A stretch of 35,364 bases of DNA from Bacillota bacterium (GTDB lineage: Bacteria > Bacillota > Limnochordia > DTU087): positions 1-35,364 of the forward strand of contig JAAZMF010000095.1 of NCBI GenBank assembly GCA_012798955.1. Reading direction: 5' to 3'. The position numbers and the translations under genes are program-made. Shown here in pieces: positions 19,269 through 28,600 of the stretch. How positions within the stretch are numbered: the first letter of the stretch is position 1; each line of letters begins with the position of its first letter. Below the pieces are notes generated by a model that was not told the origin of the DNA, made no database searches, and worked only from the letters and a program-made list of their open reading frames with translations.

Positions 19269-19297
19269 TTGTGCTCCAAGTATTTTGGGGGTATACT
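19269..19297 (+). promoter_or_regulatory. Candidate sigma-A promoter of the riboswitch transcript
   Basis: TTGTGC-N17-TATACT just upstream of the aptamer. Confidence 0.55.
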
Positions 19298-19303
19298 ATT
19301 GTA

Positions 19304-19404
19304 TAGGCTTAATCCAACCACTGGAACGGGGGACCCCTCGGGTGAATCTGCCTGTGGCAGAAGGGCTACCCGGCCCTAACCGCTCAGCTAACCTCGTAAG
19401 CGTA
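19304..19404 (+). ncRNA. c-di-AMP riboswitch, ydaO/yuaA type
   Basis: Recognised conserved blocks: GGCTTAATCC (5' P1), GGAACGGGGGACCC (19323-19336), GGGTGAATC (19340-19348), CAGCTAACCTCGTAAGCG (19385-19402, 3' P1). Confidence 0.88.
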
Positions 19405-19429
19405 GGGACTATGCTGAGGAGGGATAAAA

Positions 19430-19588
19430 ATGGCCAAATGTGTTGATTGTGGTGAACGCATTGCAGTGTGGGAGGACTACTGCCCCAAATGTGGGGCCCG
19501 GAAAGCAGTAACGGGCCAAGCGAACAAAAAGGCCCATGGCAAGAAGAAAGGACTCGGGTTTTTCGGTCGCTTGAAAAAGACCCCCTAG
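19430..19588 (+). CDS. 52-aa zinc-ribbon protein (not in ORF track)
   Basis: Own translation MAKCVDCGERIAVWEDYCPKCGARKAVTGQANKKAHGKKKGLGFFGRLKKTP*; two CxxC knuckles, SD GAGGAGGG 6 nt upstream; follows the riboswitch. Confidence 0.85.
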   Translation: MAKCVDCGERIAVWEDYCPKCGARKAVTGQANKKAHGKKKGLGFFGRLKKTP

Positions 19589-19664: not shown

Positions 19665-19703
19665 AACGGGATCACCTGCTCTTTATGAGCTTGTGATCCC
19701 GTT
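19665..19703. terminator. Strong hairpin, probably shared bidirectional terminator between convergent genes
   Basis: AACGGGATCAC-ct-gctc-tttat-gagc-tt-GTGATCCCGTT: 11-bp perfect outer stem plus 4-bp inner stem. Confidence 0.7.
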
Positions 19704-19757: not shown

Positions 19758-20141
19758 TTATGCTGGCTGCCCTTTCCATAGGAAATGCAGATTACAGTAT
19801 GCTCGAGCATGAACGTCGGTAGCATCTATGCAGAACTCGGCTTCTGGTAAGTCTCCTGCCTGCAAGTACTCACGATAGACAATACCATCGGCGATTAACT
19901 CAATCCACTCGATGTAGTGGGCATCTACCATGGGATGTGCTTCACTACCCACAGTAACTTTATAGCCGTTAGCAGTCTTTGTTACAACCGGTACATGCTT
20001 CTCCCGAGATGCATCAAAGGTATTCTCCTCTTGGAGTGTCATGGGCTCCCCGCAACAGACCAAAGTGCCGGCCCCAGTGTGCAAGACTTCCACGATATTA
20101 CCACACTTCTCGCAAAGGTAAACTTCATTGAGCTTAGTCAT
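19758..20141 (-). CDS. dfx: Desulfoferrodoxin / superoxide reductase
   Basis: CEKCGN...LVCCGEPM desulforedoxin centre; [30 protein letters not shown]. Confidence 0.93.
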
Positions 20142-20774: not shown

Positions 20775-21392
20775 CTACGAGCCTGTCTGCCGCTTCTCCT
20801 GCTGAACCTGGGTAAGCCCGGGCCCGAGGATGTATTCTATATTCCGGGCAATATCGGCTAGTATAACCGGCTGATCATCTAAAAGATAAGTCCCCACAGT
20901 ATAATCGATTGCCCCATTGACCACCGCAGCCACCTGAGCAGGATCAACTGGGTAATCCTTAGGTAGAACTCGATTCAGTACATCGATAGTAGGTCGCTCT
21001 AGCTCCCGGCGGATATTCCATACCCGCAACTGCAATTCCTTGGGAAAACCCAACATAGAATGGGACGCCGACTCTGCTAACCGCTGATTCCTAACGAAGA
21101 ACTGACCCCGCAAAGTCACTAAAACATGCATACACTCATCAGCTGATTGAATATCAGCAAGCCAACCATCTACGGTCCTAACGTATTCTTCAGTCCGGGC
21201 TTCTAGTAACGAGACAAATAGTTCTTGTTTGCTACTAAAATACAGATACAGCGTCCCTTTGGCTACACCGGCAGCTTCCGCGATATCATCCATGCGGGCG
21301 GCTGCATATCCTCTGCTAGTAAATATTAGTTCGGCGGCCTCTAATATTTCAGTGCGCTTATCCTGCACCACATCATCATTCTTCAGATTCAC
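20775..21392 (-). CDS. TetR/AcrR family regulator, last gene of the RND operon
   Basis: EILEAAELIFTSRGYAAARMDDIAEAAGVAKGTLYLYFSSKQELFVSLL; overlaps the end of the upstream TolC gene by 17 bp. Confidence 0.93.
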   Translation of the reverse strand: MNLKNDDVVQDKRTEILEAAELIFTSRGYAAARMDDIAEAAGVAKGTLYLYFSSKQELFVSLLEARTEEYVRTVDGWLADIQSADECMHVLVTLRGQFFVRNQRLAESASHSMLGFPKELQLRVWNIRRELERPTIDVLNRVLPKDYPVDPAQVAAVVNGAIDYTVGTYLLDDQPVILADIARNIEYILGPGLTQVQQEKRQTGS

Positions 21393-23007
21393 CAGCTCCC
21401 CAATCTGCCATTGGGTTTTCCCACTGGTTTCTCGTTATCGCTTGGATCAAAATCTGACCGTCAACACCTATAGTAGCCGCTACTTTTGATTTTTGAGCTT
21501 CGTATCGAAGTCCTGCATCTAGCACCTTGTTGCTGGCTTGGGCCACCATTAATTGGCCTTCCCGCACTTCTTTGTTTGTCACTGAACCGAGCTCATACAT
21601 TAGCTCTAGTTGTGCCAATGTCTCTCGGGCGGCTTGCTCACCCTCTAGGGCCAACAAGTATCCCCGCCACAGCTGGTTTAACTGCTGGATTGCACCATTT
21701 AGCTCGAGATAAAACCCATCTTCGGCCATGGCCACCTGTAGTCTAGCCTTTTCCAAGGCTGCTTCCTTAGCGACAATCTGGGCCTTTTTGGCACCTCCGT
21801 CACCAAAGCGGTAAGAGACGTTTAAGTCTACTTGCCACGGGTCGACATCAATGCCTTCCATGATTGACGTGTAATCCATGGCACCACCCATGCCCCCAGC
21901 GCTCCCTGGAGGTATTTCCGGTAGTTTCGGTGGTTCTGTCCGGACCACCGTGGATACCCAAGTCTGATTGGAGTCAACTGATGATTGCACCATGGTCTTT
22001 TCGTCAGGAGCATACTGACCACTAAGCTTCACGGTCCAATCCCGCTCTCCCTTTACTTGGTTCAAGGCGATCTCGGCCATGGTCGCTTGTTTCCTAGCCA
22101 TAGCTAGCTCCGATCGGTGCAAAGTCATATACTGGAAAGCTGCGCTTACATCAACCTCCCAAGGCTGAACCATCATCTGATGGGAGGTGGCTAACTGCTT
22201 AGCCCAACCTAGAGCTGTATCGGTATCAACGGTCTCTTGGCCCATGGTCTGTAAAAGGGCTAAGACTGCCATTTCAACTCCCATCTCAGCGGCTTGAGCG
22301 GCCTGCTGTGCCTCTAGGTAAGTATTTTTCTCTTTAAGCACATCTAAAGGCGTAGCTGTGCCAAGGCTTTGTCTAGCCTCTTCTGCAACTACATTTAATC
22401 TTGCATGTTCCTGGGCTTCCCTAGCTAAGGCAAGACCATTGTACGCCCGCAGGACTCCATGGTAACCAGCCTCAATCGCTACAACTAGCTCCTTGAGGGC
22501 CTGCTCCTGCCGAAGCAGAGCGATGTCTGTGCCAACCTCCGCTTGCCCCAAAGCACCCTTGAGCTGAGCATTAGGACCTAATTGCTGATACCATGTCAAA
22601 GACCCTATGGTAGTGTTTAGGCGGTCGTCAGGGTCCATGACACCGGCCCCTATAGGCCCAATGGTCAAGTTGGGACTGTTGACAGCATTCTCCACCCTAT
22701 GCTGCCCAGCGATAGTCAGTTGAGGCTTGAGGGCGGCACTAACTTGCCGTTTGCCGGCAAGGGCTTCCTCTTGCTCCATCTTAGCAATCTTTAGGCTAGG
22801 GCTGTTCTCCATGGCTACCTTGAGGATATCTGCAAGGCTTGCTAACTCGGCAAGTTCTGTCGACCCCTCCAAGATCCCTACTGACTCCATAGCATTCACC
22901 GGGAGTGTAGTCGTGATCACAGCCATGGTCAGTAGGATAGCCAATATTGATATTGTCCGTGGGACATGCCCACGATGGGATATTACTTTAACTCTTCGCA
23001 GCATCAC
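21376..23007 (-). CDS. TolC family outer membrane efflux protein (second copy)
   Basis: Signal/TM N-terminus, SLADILKVAMENSPSLKIAKMEQEEA, repeated OEP helical region, ELMYELGSVTNKEVREGQLMVAQA. Confidence 0.85.
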   Translation of the reverse strand: MMLRRVKVISHRGHVPRTISILAILLTMAVITTTLPVNAMESVGILEGSTELAELASLADILKVAMENSPSLKIAKMEQEEALAGKRQVSAALKPQLTIAGQHRVENAVNSPNLTIGPIGAGVMDPDDRLNTTIGSLTWYQQLGPNAQLKGALGQAEVGTDIALLRQEQALKELVVAIEAGYHGVLRAYNGLALAREAQEHARLNVVAEEARQSLGTATPLDVLKEKNTYLEAQQAAQAAEMGVEMAVLALLQTMGQETVDTDTALGWAKQLATSHQMMVQPWEVDVSAAFQYMTLHRSELAMARKQATMAEIALNQVKGERDWTVKLSGQYAPDEKTMVQSSVDSNQTWVSTVVRTEPPKLPEIPPGSAGGMGGAMDYTSIMEGIDVDPWQVDLNVSYRFGDGGAKKAQIVAKEAALEKARLQVAMAEDGFYLELNGAIQQLNQLWRGYLLALEGEQAARETLAQLELMYELGSVTNKEVREGQLMVAQASNKVLDAGLRYEAQKSKVAATIGVDGQILIQAITRNQWENPMADWGAGESEE

Positions 23008-23018
23008 AACGCAGCTCC

Positions 23019-24113
23019 TTAATGCTGGACCCGCTGGCCCGCAAGGGACCGGCCCACTGCATGGAAGTACCGGGTTTTCGCTAGATTATAATCATACAGA
23101 GCATTAACCAGATCGTTTTTGGCAGCTTGCACTCCCAGTTGTGCATCTTCTAAATCGTTGGCAGTAATCATATCCGCCTCGTAAGATAGCTCCGATAATC
23201 GTAGCATCTCTGTGGCTTCTTCAACACCTTTTTGCAGCACTGGGATCCGCTCTTCGGCGTCCTTAAGTGCTGAATGGCTTTGCTTAATCTGTAGTGCTAG
23301 TCCCTGGCGAGCCTGGGCCAGCTGCCTTTCTAGTTTGGCTAGATTTAGCTTAGCCTGCTGCAACGTCAGTGCCGGTGTATAATCATTATCAGATATCTCT
23401 ACGTTTTTCCTAGCGACTTCCACTGCTAAGAGTAGCTGCTTGATCTCATCTCGATTCGCCAATGCATGGGCCATGTCTGCATCTAGATCGATTTCCACTG
23501 GTTCCACGTCTAGAGTAATCTCTTTTGGCAAGATCAGCCCATCCAGGTCTATACCTAAGGTCTGACGGAATTTCATCTGGGCAAGCTCTAGACCATGCTT
23601 GGCTTGGGAAATACCAGATTGGCTACTCAAAACGTTGCGACTTGCCCGAATTACGTCAAGGCGAGTGGCTGTCCCAGCGGCCAGCTTTTTCTCAGCTACC
23701 CTTTCGTGGCGCTCAGCTGATTCTAATCCTTCCTGGGCAATACCTAGGAGGTTTTGTGTCCGCAAGGCATTAAAAAAGTCTGTGCGAACTTCCAATGCCA
23801 GCTGATCCCGGGCTGTTAGGTACTGCTGCCTAGCTACATCCAGTCCCCCTTGGGCCTGCATCAAGAGCACCGGCGAAGGCTTCATAATCATAGCTGCTTC
23901 CGCCTGCCTATGCTGGAACTCTGCTTCCTCTACAGCTAGTTTGGCAAGTTGCAGGCTAAGGCTGTTTTCAAAGGCAATCTCTTCTGCTTCCTCCAAAGTT
24001 ACATACTGAATACCCTCGGCCTCCAAGCTAGCGGCAGTGGCCAAGCCTCCCATCGCCATTACCAGCGTCATCACTAGCCCTGCCATAAACCATTTCTGCT
24101 TTCTCAATCCCAA
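23019..24113 (-). CDS. TolC family outer membrane efflux protein (first copy)
   Basis: Signal peptide, VTLEEAEEIAFENSLSLQLAKLAVEEAE, KLAAGTATRLDVIRASRNV, YEADMITANDLEDAQLGVQAAKNDLVNALYDYNLAKTRY. Confidence 0.87.
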   Translation of the reverse strand: MGLRKQKWFMAGLVMTLVMAMGGLATAASLEAEGIQYVTLEEAEEIAFENSLSLQLAKLAVEEAEFQHRQAEAAMIMKPSPVLLMQAQGGLDVARQQYLTARDQLALEVRTDFFNALRTQNLLGIAQEGLESAERHERVAEKKLAAGTATRLDVIRASRNVLSSQSGISQAKHGLELAQMKFRQTLGIDLDGLILPKEITLDVEPVEIDLDADMAHALANRDEIKQLLLAVEVARKNVEISDNDYTPALTLQQAKLNLAKLERQLAQARQGLALQIKQSHSALKDAEERIPVLQKGVEEATEMLRLSELSYEADMITANDLEDAQLGVQAAKNDLVNALYDYNLAKTRYFHAVGRSLAGQRVQH

Positions 24114-24188
24114 TCACTCCCGTACTCATTCTTCTATTAATGCATACCAGCTTTTTTGCTGCCTACTCCTTGAACTTCATTTCCCCGT

Positions 24189-27100
24189 CTACTTACCCAA
24201 GCCAGCACCTGTATCCACAGCTATCTGCTCCGAATCCCCGCCTCTACCAAATAGGCGCATAATCCGGCGACTCACACCATCCATAAGGGTATATACTACC
24301 GGTATGACTAGCAGAGTTAGCAATGTGGAGGTGATCAGCCCACCAATAACGGTAAAAGCTATTGGTTTTGCCATCTCACTACCTTCCCCGGTGGCAACAG
24401 CCATGGGAATCATGCCTAATACTGTAGTTAGAGTGGTCATCAAAATTGGCCTTAACCTGACCTTACCGGCCGTAATCACTGCCATGGTACGCTCCATGCC
24501 TTCTGCCCTTAGCTGATTGATATAGTCAATTAGGACGATGGCGTTATTGACCACAATGCCTGCTAACATGATAGCCCCAACAAAGGCAATCACGTTAAAG
24601 GTAGTTTTCCCGATTAACAGACCCAAGATCACGCCGATAATCGCCAGGGGTAAAGTAACCATGATGATCAAAGGTTGCAGAAGTGACTCAAACTGAGACG
24701 CCAAAATCATGAACACCAATAGGATTCCCAGTAGCATCGCTTGCCCAAGGTCTGCAAATGATTCTTGCATGAGCTGATCCTGGCCTGCATAAGTGACCAG
24801 CATACCCTCAGGAAGGTGGAATCCGTCAACTAGCTGGCGAATATCGTGCATGACCGCATTTAGAGGCCTGCCAGCAATATCGCCAGTGATGGTCACGATT
24901 CTGCTTTGATCACTGCGAACAATCTGTATTGGGCTTTCGCCATAACGGAGTGTCGCCATATCCTGCAATGGCACCAATGTGCCCCGGGCTGTCTGCACAG
25001 GTACACTACCGACAGCATCTAGATTACCCCGCCATGCTTCACCTAACCGGACAACTACGTTAGTTTCCTTGCCTTCACTTCGCAACTTAGTAACGGTGGT
25101 CCCGCTTACGGCTGTACGCAAAGTCGAGGCAATTTGGGCGACACTAAGCCCATGGGCGGCCGCCTTGTCCCGGTTTATCTCCACCAGAATCTCCGGTGAG
25201 CTCTCGTCAAGGCTACTACTTAGCTGTCTAGTACCCTCGATCTCCTCCAGGGCATGGATGAGCTCCTCTGAGGCCAAAGCTAGAAGATCCATATCATTGC
25301 CCCTAAGCTCTATTTGGATTAACTGGCCAAAGGATCCCATCATCATGTCGCCACCGGATACGGAAATGGTGGCCCCGGGAATTCCAGACGCAAATTCCCT
25401 CACTTGAGCCAGGATCTCCTTCACATCCCGATCCCTTTGGCTAACTGGGACTAGACTAAGGCCGACACTACCTCGCTCGCCACCACCGGGGGTAATGCCC
25501 ATAGACGAAACGCCGCTGCCACCAATAGAAGCATAAGCAGCTTGTATTTCAGGAAGAGTAGCCACATATTCTTCTATCTGCTTGACTATCTCGTTAGTCT
25601 CCTCAAGTTTGGTACCCTTGGGCATTGATACTGAGATCTGTATCTCACCTTGATCCATGCCTGGCATAAACTCCATGCCCACTTTGGGAATTAACATTAG
25701 GGAGATGACTAAGGTAGCGACTGCAATAGCAATCGTTGCTCCCCGATGACGGAGCACCCAAGCAATCAATCGTCCATAGATCTCTTGCATGCCATCACTA
25801 ATCTTGCCCATAAACCTTAGAAACCGGATTCCACCAGACTTTGAATCGATCTTGCCATTACCCATAATCTGTGAGGCTAGCATGGGCACTAAAGTTAAAG
25901 CAACTAATAGTGATGCCATGAGAGAAAAAGTAACAGTTAAGGCCATGTCTCTAAAAATCTCTGCGGCAATACCCGACACAAAGACCACCGGTATAAATAC
26001 TGATACCGTTGTTAGAGTAGATGCCGTGATGGCCATACCTACTTCCTCTGCTCCTAGTTGGGCGGCTTCCTTGGCATTTTTGCCGAGCTCCCGCTGCCGA
26101 AATATATTCTCTAGGACGACGATGGCATTATCTACCAACATCCCCACACCTAGAGCTAGACCGCCTAAAGACATCATGTTGATCGTGGTTTTACTAAAAT
26201 AGATCATGGTAAAGGCGGCTACTATAGAAATGGGAATGGCCAAACCGATAACAAATGTGGGCCTTAGACTTCTTAGGAAGACCAAGAGCACCAGCATGGC
26301 CAGGAGCCCACCGATAACGGCATTATTGGTTACACCTTTGATTGAATCCTTAATAAACAGCGACGTGTCCTGGGCAATCAAAAGCGAGATGTCGGTGCCA
26401 AGTTCTTTGGCTAATTTGTCTACTTCGGCTCTAACCTTCTCCGCCACCCGTACACTGTTGCTACCGGCTTCCTTTTGCACAGATAGCATAATACTTGGTT
26501 GGCCGTTATAACGGCTTAAGCTAGTCGCTTTTCTGTAGCCATCTTCAACTTCGCCGATATCTGTCAGGCTAACGAGTCCGCCTCCCCGGGTTGGGATCTT
26601 GATGGAGCGGATTTGATCAACGCTAGTGAGCTCACCGGCTGTCCGTAGCACGTATTCATGACCATTGTCTTCGATATTGCCGGCTGGCAAATTCATACTA
26701 GATGCTCTAATCATCTGGCTAACTGCATCAATAGAGACCCCATGGGCTGCTAAAAGACCTGGGTGTAGCACTATGCGAATCTCCCGCTCTTGCCCTCCGG
26801 ATACACTTACCGAAGCTACACCTTCCAGCCGCTCGAGCCTGTTCTTAATGGTATGTTCAGCAATATAGCGCAGTTCGTGCTCAGGGCGGGCTCCGTTTAG
26901 CACCAACTGCATGACGGGCATGGCCATGGGATCGAACTTAACCACCATGGGGTTTTCTGCTTCATCGGGCATAAAGAATTTCGCTTGATCAATCTTTTCC
27001 CGAACATCTAGGGCCGCGAAGTTCATATCGATGCCCCAATCAAACTCAGCCACAACTATAGATGAGCCTTTGCCTGATATCGAGCTCACGCTCTTGATAT

Positions 27101-27326
27101 TGTTAACAGCCCCGAGAGCTTCCTCCATAGGGCGAGAGACTAAGGACTCAACCTCATAGGGCCCGGCATCTGGATAACTGGTAATAATGGCAACAACAGG
27201 CACTTCAATACTGGGAAAAAGATCGATGGGCAACCGGGAAAGGCTCACCCAACCCAATACCAGAACAATGGCCACCATCATTAGGATGGTGACTGGTCGC
27301 CTAACTGCCATTGCAGCAAGTTTCAT
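24189..27326 (-). CDS. RND efflux transporter permease (HAE family)
   Basis: 1045 aa; RRPVTILMMV..., GLALGVGMLVDNAIVVLENI, internal duplication of the 6-TM block. Confidence 0.95.
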   Translation of the reverse strand: MKLAAMAVRRPVTILMMVAIVLVLGWVSLSRLPIDLFPSIEVPVVAIITSYPDAGPYEVESLVSRPMEEALGAVNNIKSVSSISGKGSSIVVAEFDWGIDMNFAALDVREKIDQAKFFMPDEAENPMVVKFDPMAMPVMQLVLNGARPEHELRYIAEHTIKNRLERLEGVASVSVSGGQEREIRIVLHPGLLAAHGVSIDAVSQMIRASSMNLPAGNIEDNGHEYVLRTAGELTSVDQIRSIKIPTRGGGLVSLTDIGEVEDGYRKATSLSRYNGQPSIMLSVQKEAGSNSVRVAEKVRAEVDKLAKELGTDISLLIAQDTSLFIKDSIKGVTNNAVIGGLLAMLVLLVFLRSLRPTFVIGLAIPISIVAAFTMIYFSKTTINMMSLGGLALGVGMLVDNAIVVLENIFRQRELGKNAKEAAQLGAEEVGMAITASTLTTVSVFIPVVFVSGIAAEIFRDMALTVTFSLMASLLVALTLVPMLASQIMGNGKIDSKSGGIRFLRFMGKISDGMQEIYGRLIAWVLRHRGATIAIAVATLVISLMLIPKVGMEFMPGMDQGEIQISVSMPKGTKLEETNEIVKQIEEYVATLPEIQAAYASIGGSGVSSMGITPGGGERGSVGLSLVPVSQRDRDVKEILAQVREFASGIPGATISVSGGDMMMGSFGQLIQIELRGNDMDLLALASEELIHALEEIEGTRQLSSSLDESSPEILVEINRDKAAAHGLSVAQIASTLRTAVSGTTVTKLRSEGKETNVVVRLGEAWRGNLDAVGSVPVQTARGTLVPLQDMATLRYGESPIQIVRSDQSRIVTITGDIAGRPLNAVMHDIRQLVDGFHLPEGMLVTYAGQDQLMQESFADLGQAMLLGILLVFMILASQFESLLQPLIIMVTLPLAIIGVILGLLIGKTTFNVIAFVGAIMLAGIVVNNAIVLIDYINQLRAEGMERTMAVITAGKVRLRPILMTTLTTVLGMIPMAVATGEGSEMAKPIAFTVIGGLITSTLLTLLVIPVVYTLMDGVSRRIMRLFGRGGDSEQIAVDTGAGLGK

Positions 27327-28600
27327 TGGGCAGTCCCCCGTTCCACCACCCGGACAACGGCACCGTCTGTGACAAACTCACGCCCCCGGGTAATCACCTC
27401 ATCATCCGGCTCGATTCCAGACTTTATTTCTACGAAATTATCTGCCTTTGTACCAAGTTCCACCGGTGTCAAATGAGCCACATCATCCCGCACAATGTAG
27501 ACTGCAGATCTGCCTTCAGAGGTAAATACAGCCCGCTCGGGTATGGATAGCACATTTTGCATTTCCTTGACAACCACATGGGCAGTACCATACATGCCTG
27601 GCTTGAGCATGCCTGCATCGTTAGCCAATTCCACAGTGGCGGCAAACAGACCAGTCCTGGCATCGGCCGCTGGTGTGATATTACTGACATGTCCCTCCAC
27701 CAGTACATCTGGCTGTACATCCAATGCCACCCGGACGCTTTGCCCTGGGCTTAGCCGCACTACTTCCCGCTCACTTACCTGCAAATTTAGCTTGACCTTG
27801 GCGATATCCACTATGTGCACTACAGGCATCCCAGCTCCAGCCATATCACCTATTTGTACATTAACTTGATTGACAACACCTGATATGGGTGCCTTAATGG
27901 ATGCATTCTGGCGGCTCAGTCGGGCTAGGCCAAGAGCGGCTTCTGCTTGGGCAACTCCTGCCCTAGCTGTAGCAAGGTCCTCAGTCCGGGCACCTTTTTT
28001 TACTAACTCTACAGTCTTTAAAGCCGCATGTCTTTGAGCTTGTGCAACTTCATATTGAGCTTTAACCGCGTCCCAGTCTTTGCCAGCCATGACCCCAGCT
28101 TCATGGAGCTTGGCTGCCCTCTCATAGCCTAGTCGGGCATTCTGATACCCTGCCTCGGCTTGCTCCAAAGTGGCCTCAGCTTGCTCGACCTCTTCCGGTC
28201 TAGCACCTGCCTGCATCCTAGCTAATGCTGCTTGGGCACTAGCTACCGCGGCTTCGGCCTGCTTGACCTGCAAAGTCAGCTCCTCATCTTCGAGCCGCAC
28301 CAATAGATCGCCAGTACTCACTTGATCGCCTACTTCAACTAACACCTGGGCAACCTTGCCTGGAATCTTGGGAATCACATTAACTTCTGCCCAAGGTGAG
28401 ATTAGGCCATGCAAGGCAAGCCTCTCCTGCATAACTCGATAGGTGGCTGGCTCAACACTGACTGCTTGACGCCGTACTTCTGTAGGCGCCTCTGGTAAGG
28501 TCTGGGCCTCTTTGGCTCCGGGCCCTAATCGGGCAACAAAAAAGCCAATACCGGCCACTAGCAAAACAACTATAACACCGAAGATTACCCATCTTTTCAA
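27323..28600 (-). CDS. RND efflux periplasmic adaptor (membrane fusion) protein
   Basis: TTG start with GGAGGAGA SD; VNVIPKIPGKVAQVLVEVGDQVSTGDLLVRLED; coiled coil; IKAPISGVVNQVNVQIGDMAGAG. Confidence 0.93.
   Translation of the reverse strand: MKRWVIFGVIVVLLVAGIGFFVARLGPGAKEAQTLPEAPTEVRRQAVSVEPATYRVMQERLALHGLISPWAEVNVIPKIPGKVAQVLVEVGDQVSTGDLLVRLEDEELTLQVKQAEAAVASAQAALARMQAGARPEEVEQAEATLEQAEAGYQNARLGYERAAKLHEAGVMAGKDWDAVKAQYEVAQAQRHAALKTVELVKKGARTEDLATARAGVAQAEAALGLARLSRQNASIKAPISGVVNQVNVQIGDMAGAGMPVVHIVDIAKVKLNLQVSEREVVRLSPGQSVRVALDVQPDVLVEGHVSNITPAADARTGLFAATVELANDAGMLKPGMYGTAHVVVKEMQNVLSIPERAVFTSEGRSAVYIVRDDVAHLTPVELGTKADNFVEIKSGIEPDDEVITRGREFVTDGAVVRVVERGTAQ

Follow-up and report, generated by a model that had tools for sequence, protein, structure and literature searches.

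Riboswitches for cyclic di-AMP (c-di-AMP) have been reported mostly in front of transporter and cell-wall genes, which they turn OFF. A locus in which an aptamer of this class appears to stand directly before an open reading frame (ORF) for a tiny zinc-ribbon-like protein raises the question whether this association is real and, if so, by which mechanism and in which direction the gene would be controlled. The locus lies in the window, that is, the whole stretch of 35,364 nucleotides of Bacillota DNA analysed here, where an initial annotation from the bare sequence had placed a promoter, a ydaO aptamer, a Shine-Dalgarno (SD) sequence and a previously unlisted 52-amino acid ORF. The coordinates and sequence blocks given there proved correct, and SD and ORF are present as described (Table 1). 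Taken together, the window and nine orthologous loci support the presence of a predicted c-di-AMP-class riboswitch dedicated to this single zinc-ribbon ORF.

Table 1. Positions of the predicted regulatory and coding elements in the window, in 5' to 3' order.
Feature	Position	Strand	Basis and remarks
Sigma-A-type promoter TTGTGC-N17-TATACT	19269-19297	+	Sequence; identical spacing in 9/9 orthologous leaders
c-di-AMP-class (ydaO/yuaA) aptamer, short subtype	19296-19414	+	RF00379, 63.4 bits, E 1.3e-12; relatives 57-70 bits
P1 5' strand GCUU	19307-19310	+	Pairs with AAGC 19398-19401; Rfam structure, pairs counted
P2 5' strand ACGGGG	19326-19331	+	Pairs with CCUCGU 19392-19397; Rfam structure
P2/P1 3' strand CCUCGUAAGCG, proposed switching strand	19392-19402	+	Alternative partner UGCU plus SD; RNAalifold consensus
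UGCU box, candidate anti-P1 element just 5' of the SD	19412-19415	+	Invariant in 9/9; pairs with AGCG in the consensus fold
Shine-Dalgarno GAGGAGGG	19416-19423	+	Sequence; within it, GAGG 19419-19422 pairs in the alternative hairpin
52-aa basic mini zinc-ribbon-like protein, Cx2C-x10-Cx2C plus basic tail	19430-19588	+	Orthologs in 9 genomes; third-position-dominated substitutions
Terminator-like hairpin 3' of the ORF	19666-19703	+	T run weak; hairpin faces the convergent desulfoferrodoxin-like gene too

The assignment to the ydaO/yuaA family is borne out by a significant RF00379 match that covers the full length of the model (positions 1-134), scores 63.4 bits where the gathering threshold is 38 and is the sole Rfam match in the whole window. 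Equally, nine of nine orthologous leaders exceed the gathering threshold, with scores of 57-70 bits as compared to mostly 75-110 bits for other RF00379 switches. In all nine, the hairpin between P2 and P3 is shortened (CCC-NN-GGG), three instead of four G stand before UGAAUC and AACCG replaces AACCCG (AACCA in G001), whereby the loss of one G before UGAAUC together with the AACCG exchange leaves a weak P3. Apart from the departures that weaken P3, the core blocks and helices P1-P5 of RF00379 are present, with P2 paired in 100% of the cells in the nine sequences. Such common departures, the low scores and the new target gene might indicate an aptamer variant whose ligand or affinity has drifted, with, for example, one site weakened or another dinucleotide bound, resembling rare variants in other riboswitch families. 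However, the remaining Rfam core is kept in nine of nine leaders, and the P2-P3 bubble of the crystallised Thermoanaerobacter pseudethanolicus RNA is partly unresolved too (PMC5393176), so that the short subtype alone does not predict a loss of binding; drift of this kind is considered improbable. A diadenylate cyclase (DAC) domain (PF02457, 99.7 bits) is encoded in the same genome, as in a c-di-AMP-producing host, and the ligand of the predicted aptamer is very likely c-di-AMP. Decay of the element into an aptamer without regulation, a merely structured 5' UTR of the ORF, could be read from a score below that of its paralogues, but the leader retains a mean column identity of 85% over nine species with variable parts only in loops and spacer, and promoter, core and spacing are all preserved, which makes decay highly improbable.

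Does the association extend beyond the single locus? Orthologs of the ORF, sought in 61 genomes (its own and 60 relatives), were recovered from nine of the eleven genomes in its taxonomic family, a group of uncultured Bacillota. Their identity with the window protein is 56-77%, and each directly follows an RF00379 match, so that the pairing initially proposed from one sequence recurs in relatives. G008 and G009, which are 82% and 90% complete, lack the ORF; the adjoining TetR ortholog is missing there as well (best matches 28-34% identity), which renders loss and an assembly gap indistinguishable. A profile built from the nine proteins and run on 73 genomes of the class gave no further convincing member, merely two weak matches (2e-5 and 6e-5) that are short and partial. 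Distant zinc-ribbon-like matches in G014 and G028 have no RF00379 nearby and were discarded. Across the phylum, a DNA pattern that joins the aptamer 3' end to two CxxC knuckles behind it returned from 399 genomes family members and two extra matches only. The latter, in G100 and G294, belong to true RF00379 sites, but the readable residues after them did not resemble a zinc ribbon; they are ordinary RF00379 sites whose downstream sequence apparently fits the pattern by chance. Within the family the locus is syntenic, with a radical-SAM-like gene and a TetR gene, divergently oriented, to the left and a convergent desulfoferrodoxin-like gene followed by more shared genes to the right, the names of the neighbours being assigned by reading of the sequences. 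The same locus is found in named Bacillota MAG records including 'Clostridiales bacterium DTU087'. The desulfoferrodoxin-like gene (window 19758-20141, minus strand) lies convergent with the zinc-ribbon gene, on the opposite strand, in most family members and was not seen beside the G003 copy.

Judged by its substitution pattern, the ORF is a real gene. Pairwise differences in the first 25 codons amount to 78, 98 and 446 at codon positions 1, 2 and 3, respectively, and dN is far under dS wherever dS can be estimated. The four cysteines of the two CxxC knuckles (C4, C7, C18 and C21) are invariant in all nine orthologs, as are W14 and D16-Y17 between the knuckles, while the tail is variable, basic and ends in a short hydrophobic/basic stretch. 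The proteins are 51-53 amino acids long with a pI of 9.4-10.0 and a tail net charge of +5 to +8. The window protein stays below the curated cut-off of every Pfam and NCBIfam family, with DZR at 18.3 against 27.3 bits and Zn_Ribbon_1 at 18.0 against 25 bits of the Pfam gathering score; all nine members match DZR weakly, and the window protein is classed only as zinc-ribbon-like. It has the Cx2C-x10-Cx2C knuckles in common with DZR (PF12773) and Zn_Ribbon_1 (PF13240), and differs from them in its sub-gathering scores and in standing alone, with a basic tail but without any further domain. A search for a PDB relative of the window protein found none, and the AlphaFold model is of low confidence (pLDDT 61, about 76 in the ribbon part), with a moderately confident knuckle region and a disordered tail. 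The four invariant cysteines let us infer that the protein binds zinc. It probably serves as a small binding module that zinc stabilises and that carries a flexible basic tail; that this tail makes it an adaptor for nucleic acid, membrane or protein is a speculative guess based on composition.

The architecture around the ORF points to a regulatory unit of its own. The promoter was located as annotated, with the -35 element TTGTGC at 19269-19274, a 17-nt spacer and TATACT at 19292-19297, and TTGnnn-N17-TATA(C/A)T is kept in all nine orthologous leaders; transcription should consequently begin at the 5' edge of the aptamer. From the aptamer end to the start codon there are 15 nt in the window and 15-17 nt across the nine orthologous loci. 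An intrinsic terminator between aptamer and ORF, the hallmark of a transcriptional OFF switch, was found in none of the nine leaders checked, so that its absence, initially noted for one leader, holds throughout, whereas the remaining RF00379 leaders in the class mostly do have a terminator before the gene. A terminator-like hairpin follows the ORF in nine of nine loci, being weakest in G006. The conserved promoter, the terminator-free leader and the hairpin after the ORF combine to a dedicated one-gene unit. The family's other RF00379 leaders stand ahead of genes for SulP-type transporters, peptide-ABC binding proteins or a TrkA-like protein, and there the aptamer is mostly separated from the gene by about 90-230 nt and terminator-like hairpins.

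Since the start codon is 15 nt from the aptamer and the leader has no terminator, control is most likely exerted at the SD, and translational control, as the initial annotation had suggested, is the only layout that fits and is strongly favoured. The switch helix proposed there has fared differently: the sequences CTCAGC (19383-19388) and GCTGAG (19413-19418) do exist, but their 6-bp pairing is not conserved, with AGC/GCU only in most relatives, and it was dropped in favour of CCUC/GAGG and AGCG/UGCU. In the RNAalifold consensus of the nine leaders, P1 and P2 are missing and an SD hairpin takes their place. In this hairpin, CCUC (19392-19395) in the P2 3' strand pairs with the SD segment GAGG (19419-19422), and the UGCU box pairs with AGCG (19399-19402) in the P1 3' strand; 97% of the hairpin's cells are paired in the nine sequences. 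UGCU and GAGG thereby follow each other as the 5' strands of P1 and P2 do, and compete with them for one 3' strand. In nine of nine leaders, which are not independent, the duplex of the P2/P1 3' strand with the spacer beats shuffled spacers (fraction 0.000-0.112), and the SD is unpaired to 0.53-0.89 with the aptamer fold imposed versus 0.08-0.44 in the free ensemble.

As the SD hairpin excludes the ligand-bound fold, c-di-AMP would switch translation ON. Without ligand, the CCUC and AGCG segments of the P2/P1 3' strand would pair with GAGG and UGCU and hide the SD; upon binding of c-di-AMP, P1 and P2 would form, the SD would be released and the protein be made. A compact c-di-AMP riboswitch with translational ON control of one monocistronic zinc-ribbon gene is a balanced proposition, and the ON direction, as derived from the folds, has approximately an even chance. 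That we deal with a family-specific short aptamer subtype of inverted sign, in which the ribosome-binding site replaces the terminator as the partner of the P1/P2 3' strand and a zinc-ribbon effector is made at high c-di-AMP, is put forward tentatively, as it falls somewhat short of an even chance. In five of the nine leaders, the free fold hides the SD no better than with dinucleotide-shuffled aptamers, and in leaders as rich in GC as these, chance alone would often pair the SD just as well. The nine leaders, being too alike, gave no covariation for the aptamer, for the SD hairpin, which varies too little, or for a pairing of the SD with the P2-P3 loop. Equally, the SulP leaders of the same family combine a terminator with similar complementarity between SD and aptamer, so that complementarity alone leaves the sign unfixed.

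The P2-P3 loop offers a competing partner for the SD, with AUCCC facing GGGAU in six of nine leaders, and would be the basis of a translational OFF switch with the same riboswitch and target, in which a loop that is free in the ligand-bound form, for example CCC(U/A)(C/U) between P2 and P3, catches the SD, or the SD is blocked sterically. The c-di-AMP riboswitches described in the literature examined are OFF switches, including nlpC of Corynebacterium glutamicum, a presumed translational one for which a CTCC-RBS pseudoknot has been proposed (PMC9960051). However, the loop nucleotides GGGA.CC are part of the conserved aptamer core and probably occupied in the ligand-bound state, G000, G001 and G003 do not preserve the AUCCC/GGGAU pairing in this form, and the invariant UGCU is left unexplained; OFF control is a possibility that we regard as less likely than ON control.

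Among known systems, the kimA/ktrA switches of Bacillus subtilis and the kdp type of B. thuringiensis share aptamer family, conserved core and helix order with the window element, but possess a terminator downstream of the aptamer and transporter targets (PMC6488665, PMC9337991), whereas the window element is terminator-free, 15 nt from the start codon of a mini zinc-ribbon gene and shortened in the P2-P3 region. More alike is C. glutamicum nlpC, where a canonical terminator is equally missing and control is most likely translational; unlike the window gene, it encodes a cell-wall peptidase in an operon, has been shown to be switched OFF and follows another model of SD pairing (PMC9960051). 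A terminator-free, presumed translational c-di-AMP riboswitch thus has one precedent. The terms 'c-di-AMP riboswitch' and 'zinc ribbon' were not found together in the literature examined, relative to which the shared shortened subtype with its zinc-ribbon target is new, the aptamer family itself being known. That so small a zinc-ribbon protein has a conserved, terminator-free unit dedicated to it points to a new effector in the physiology of c-di-AMP; should the ON direction hold true, the element would be an activating member of this riboswitch class.

Several other loci deserve mention on their own. SulP c-di-AMP leaders (L001 1615-1735 and the same position in L061, L065, L066, L070, L072, L075, L076 and L081) have a terminator-like hairpin after the aptamer and a conserved RBS box GGUACCACUACUAUAnACGGGGUG complementary to the aptamer P2/P1 3' strand; the L076 leader keeps the pairing via two-sided changes, AGUGAU/AUUACU for AGUGGU/ACCACU. 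The own genome harbours two near-paralogous loci (L001 and L002), each with a PatB/MalY-like aminotransferase, a c-di-AMP riboswitch and a SulP transporter, which represent a duplication or, given 5.1% contamination, two strains. Elsewhere in the window (21376-28600, minus strand), two TolC-like outer-membrane factors and a large RND-type efflux protein were recognized by reading of the sequence and suggest a two-membrane (diderm) envelope for this Bacillota genome. Veg-like small proteins (MAVEKQTTIEDIKHHLESNLGKKVFIRASKGRRRFLESEG...) follow RF00379 in another family of the class, either by themselves or behind another small ORF (L098, L110, L113 and L116), and in other families of the class RF00379 precedes opine/octopine-dehydrogenase-like genes, named from sequence reading (L095, L101, L106 and L083).
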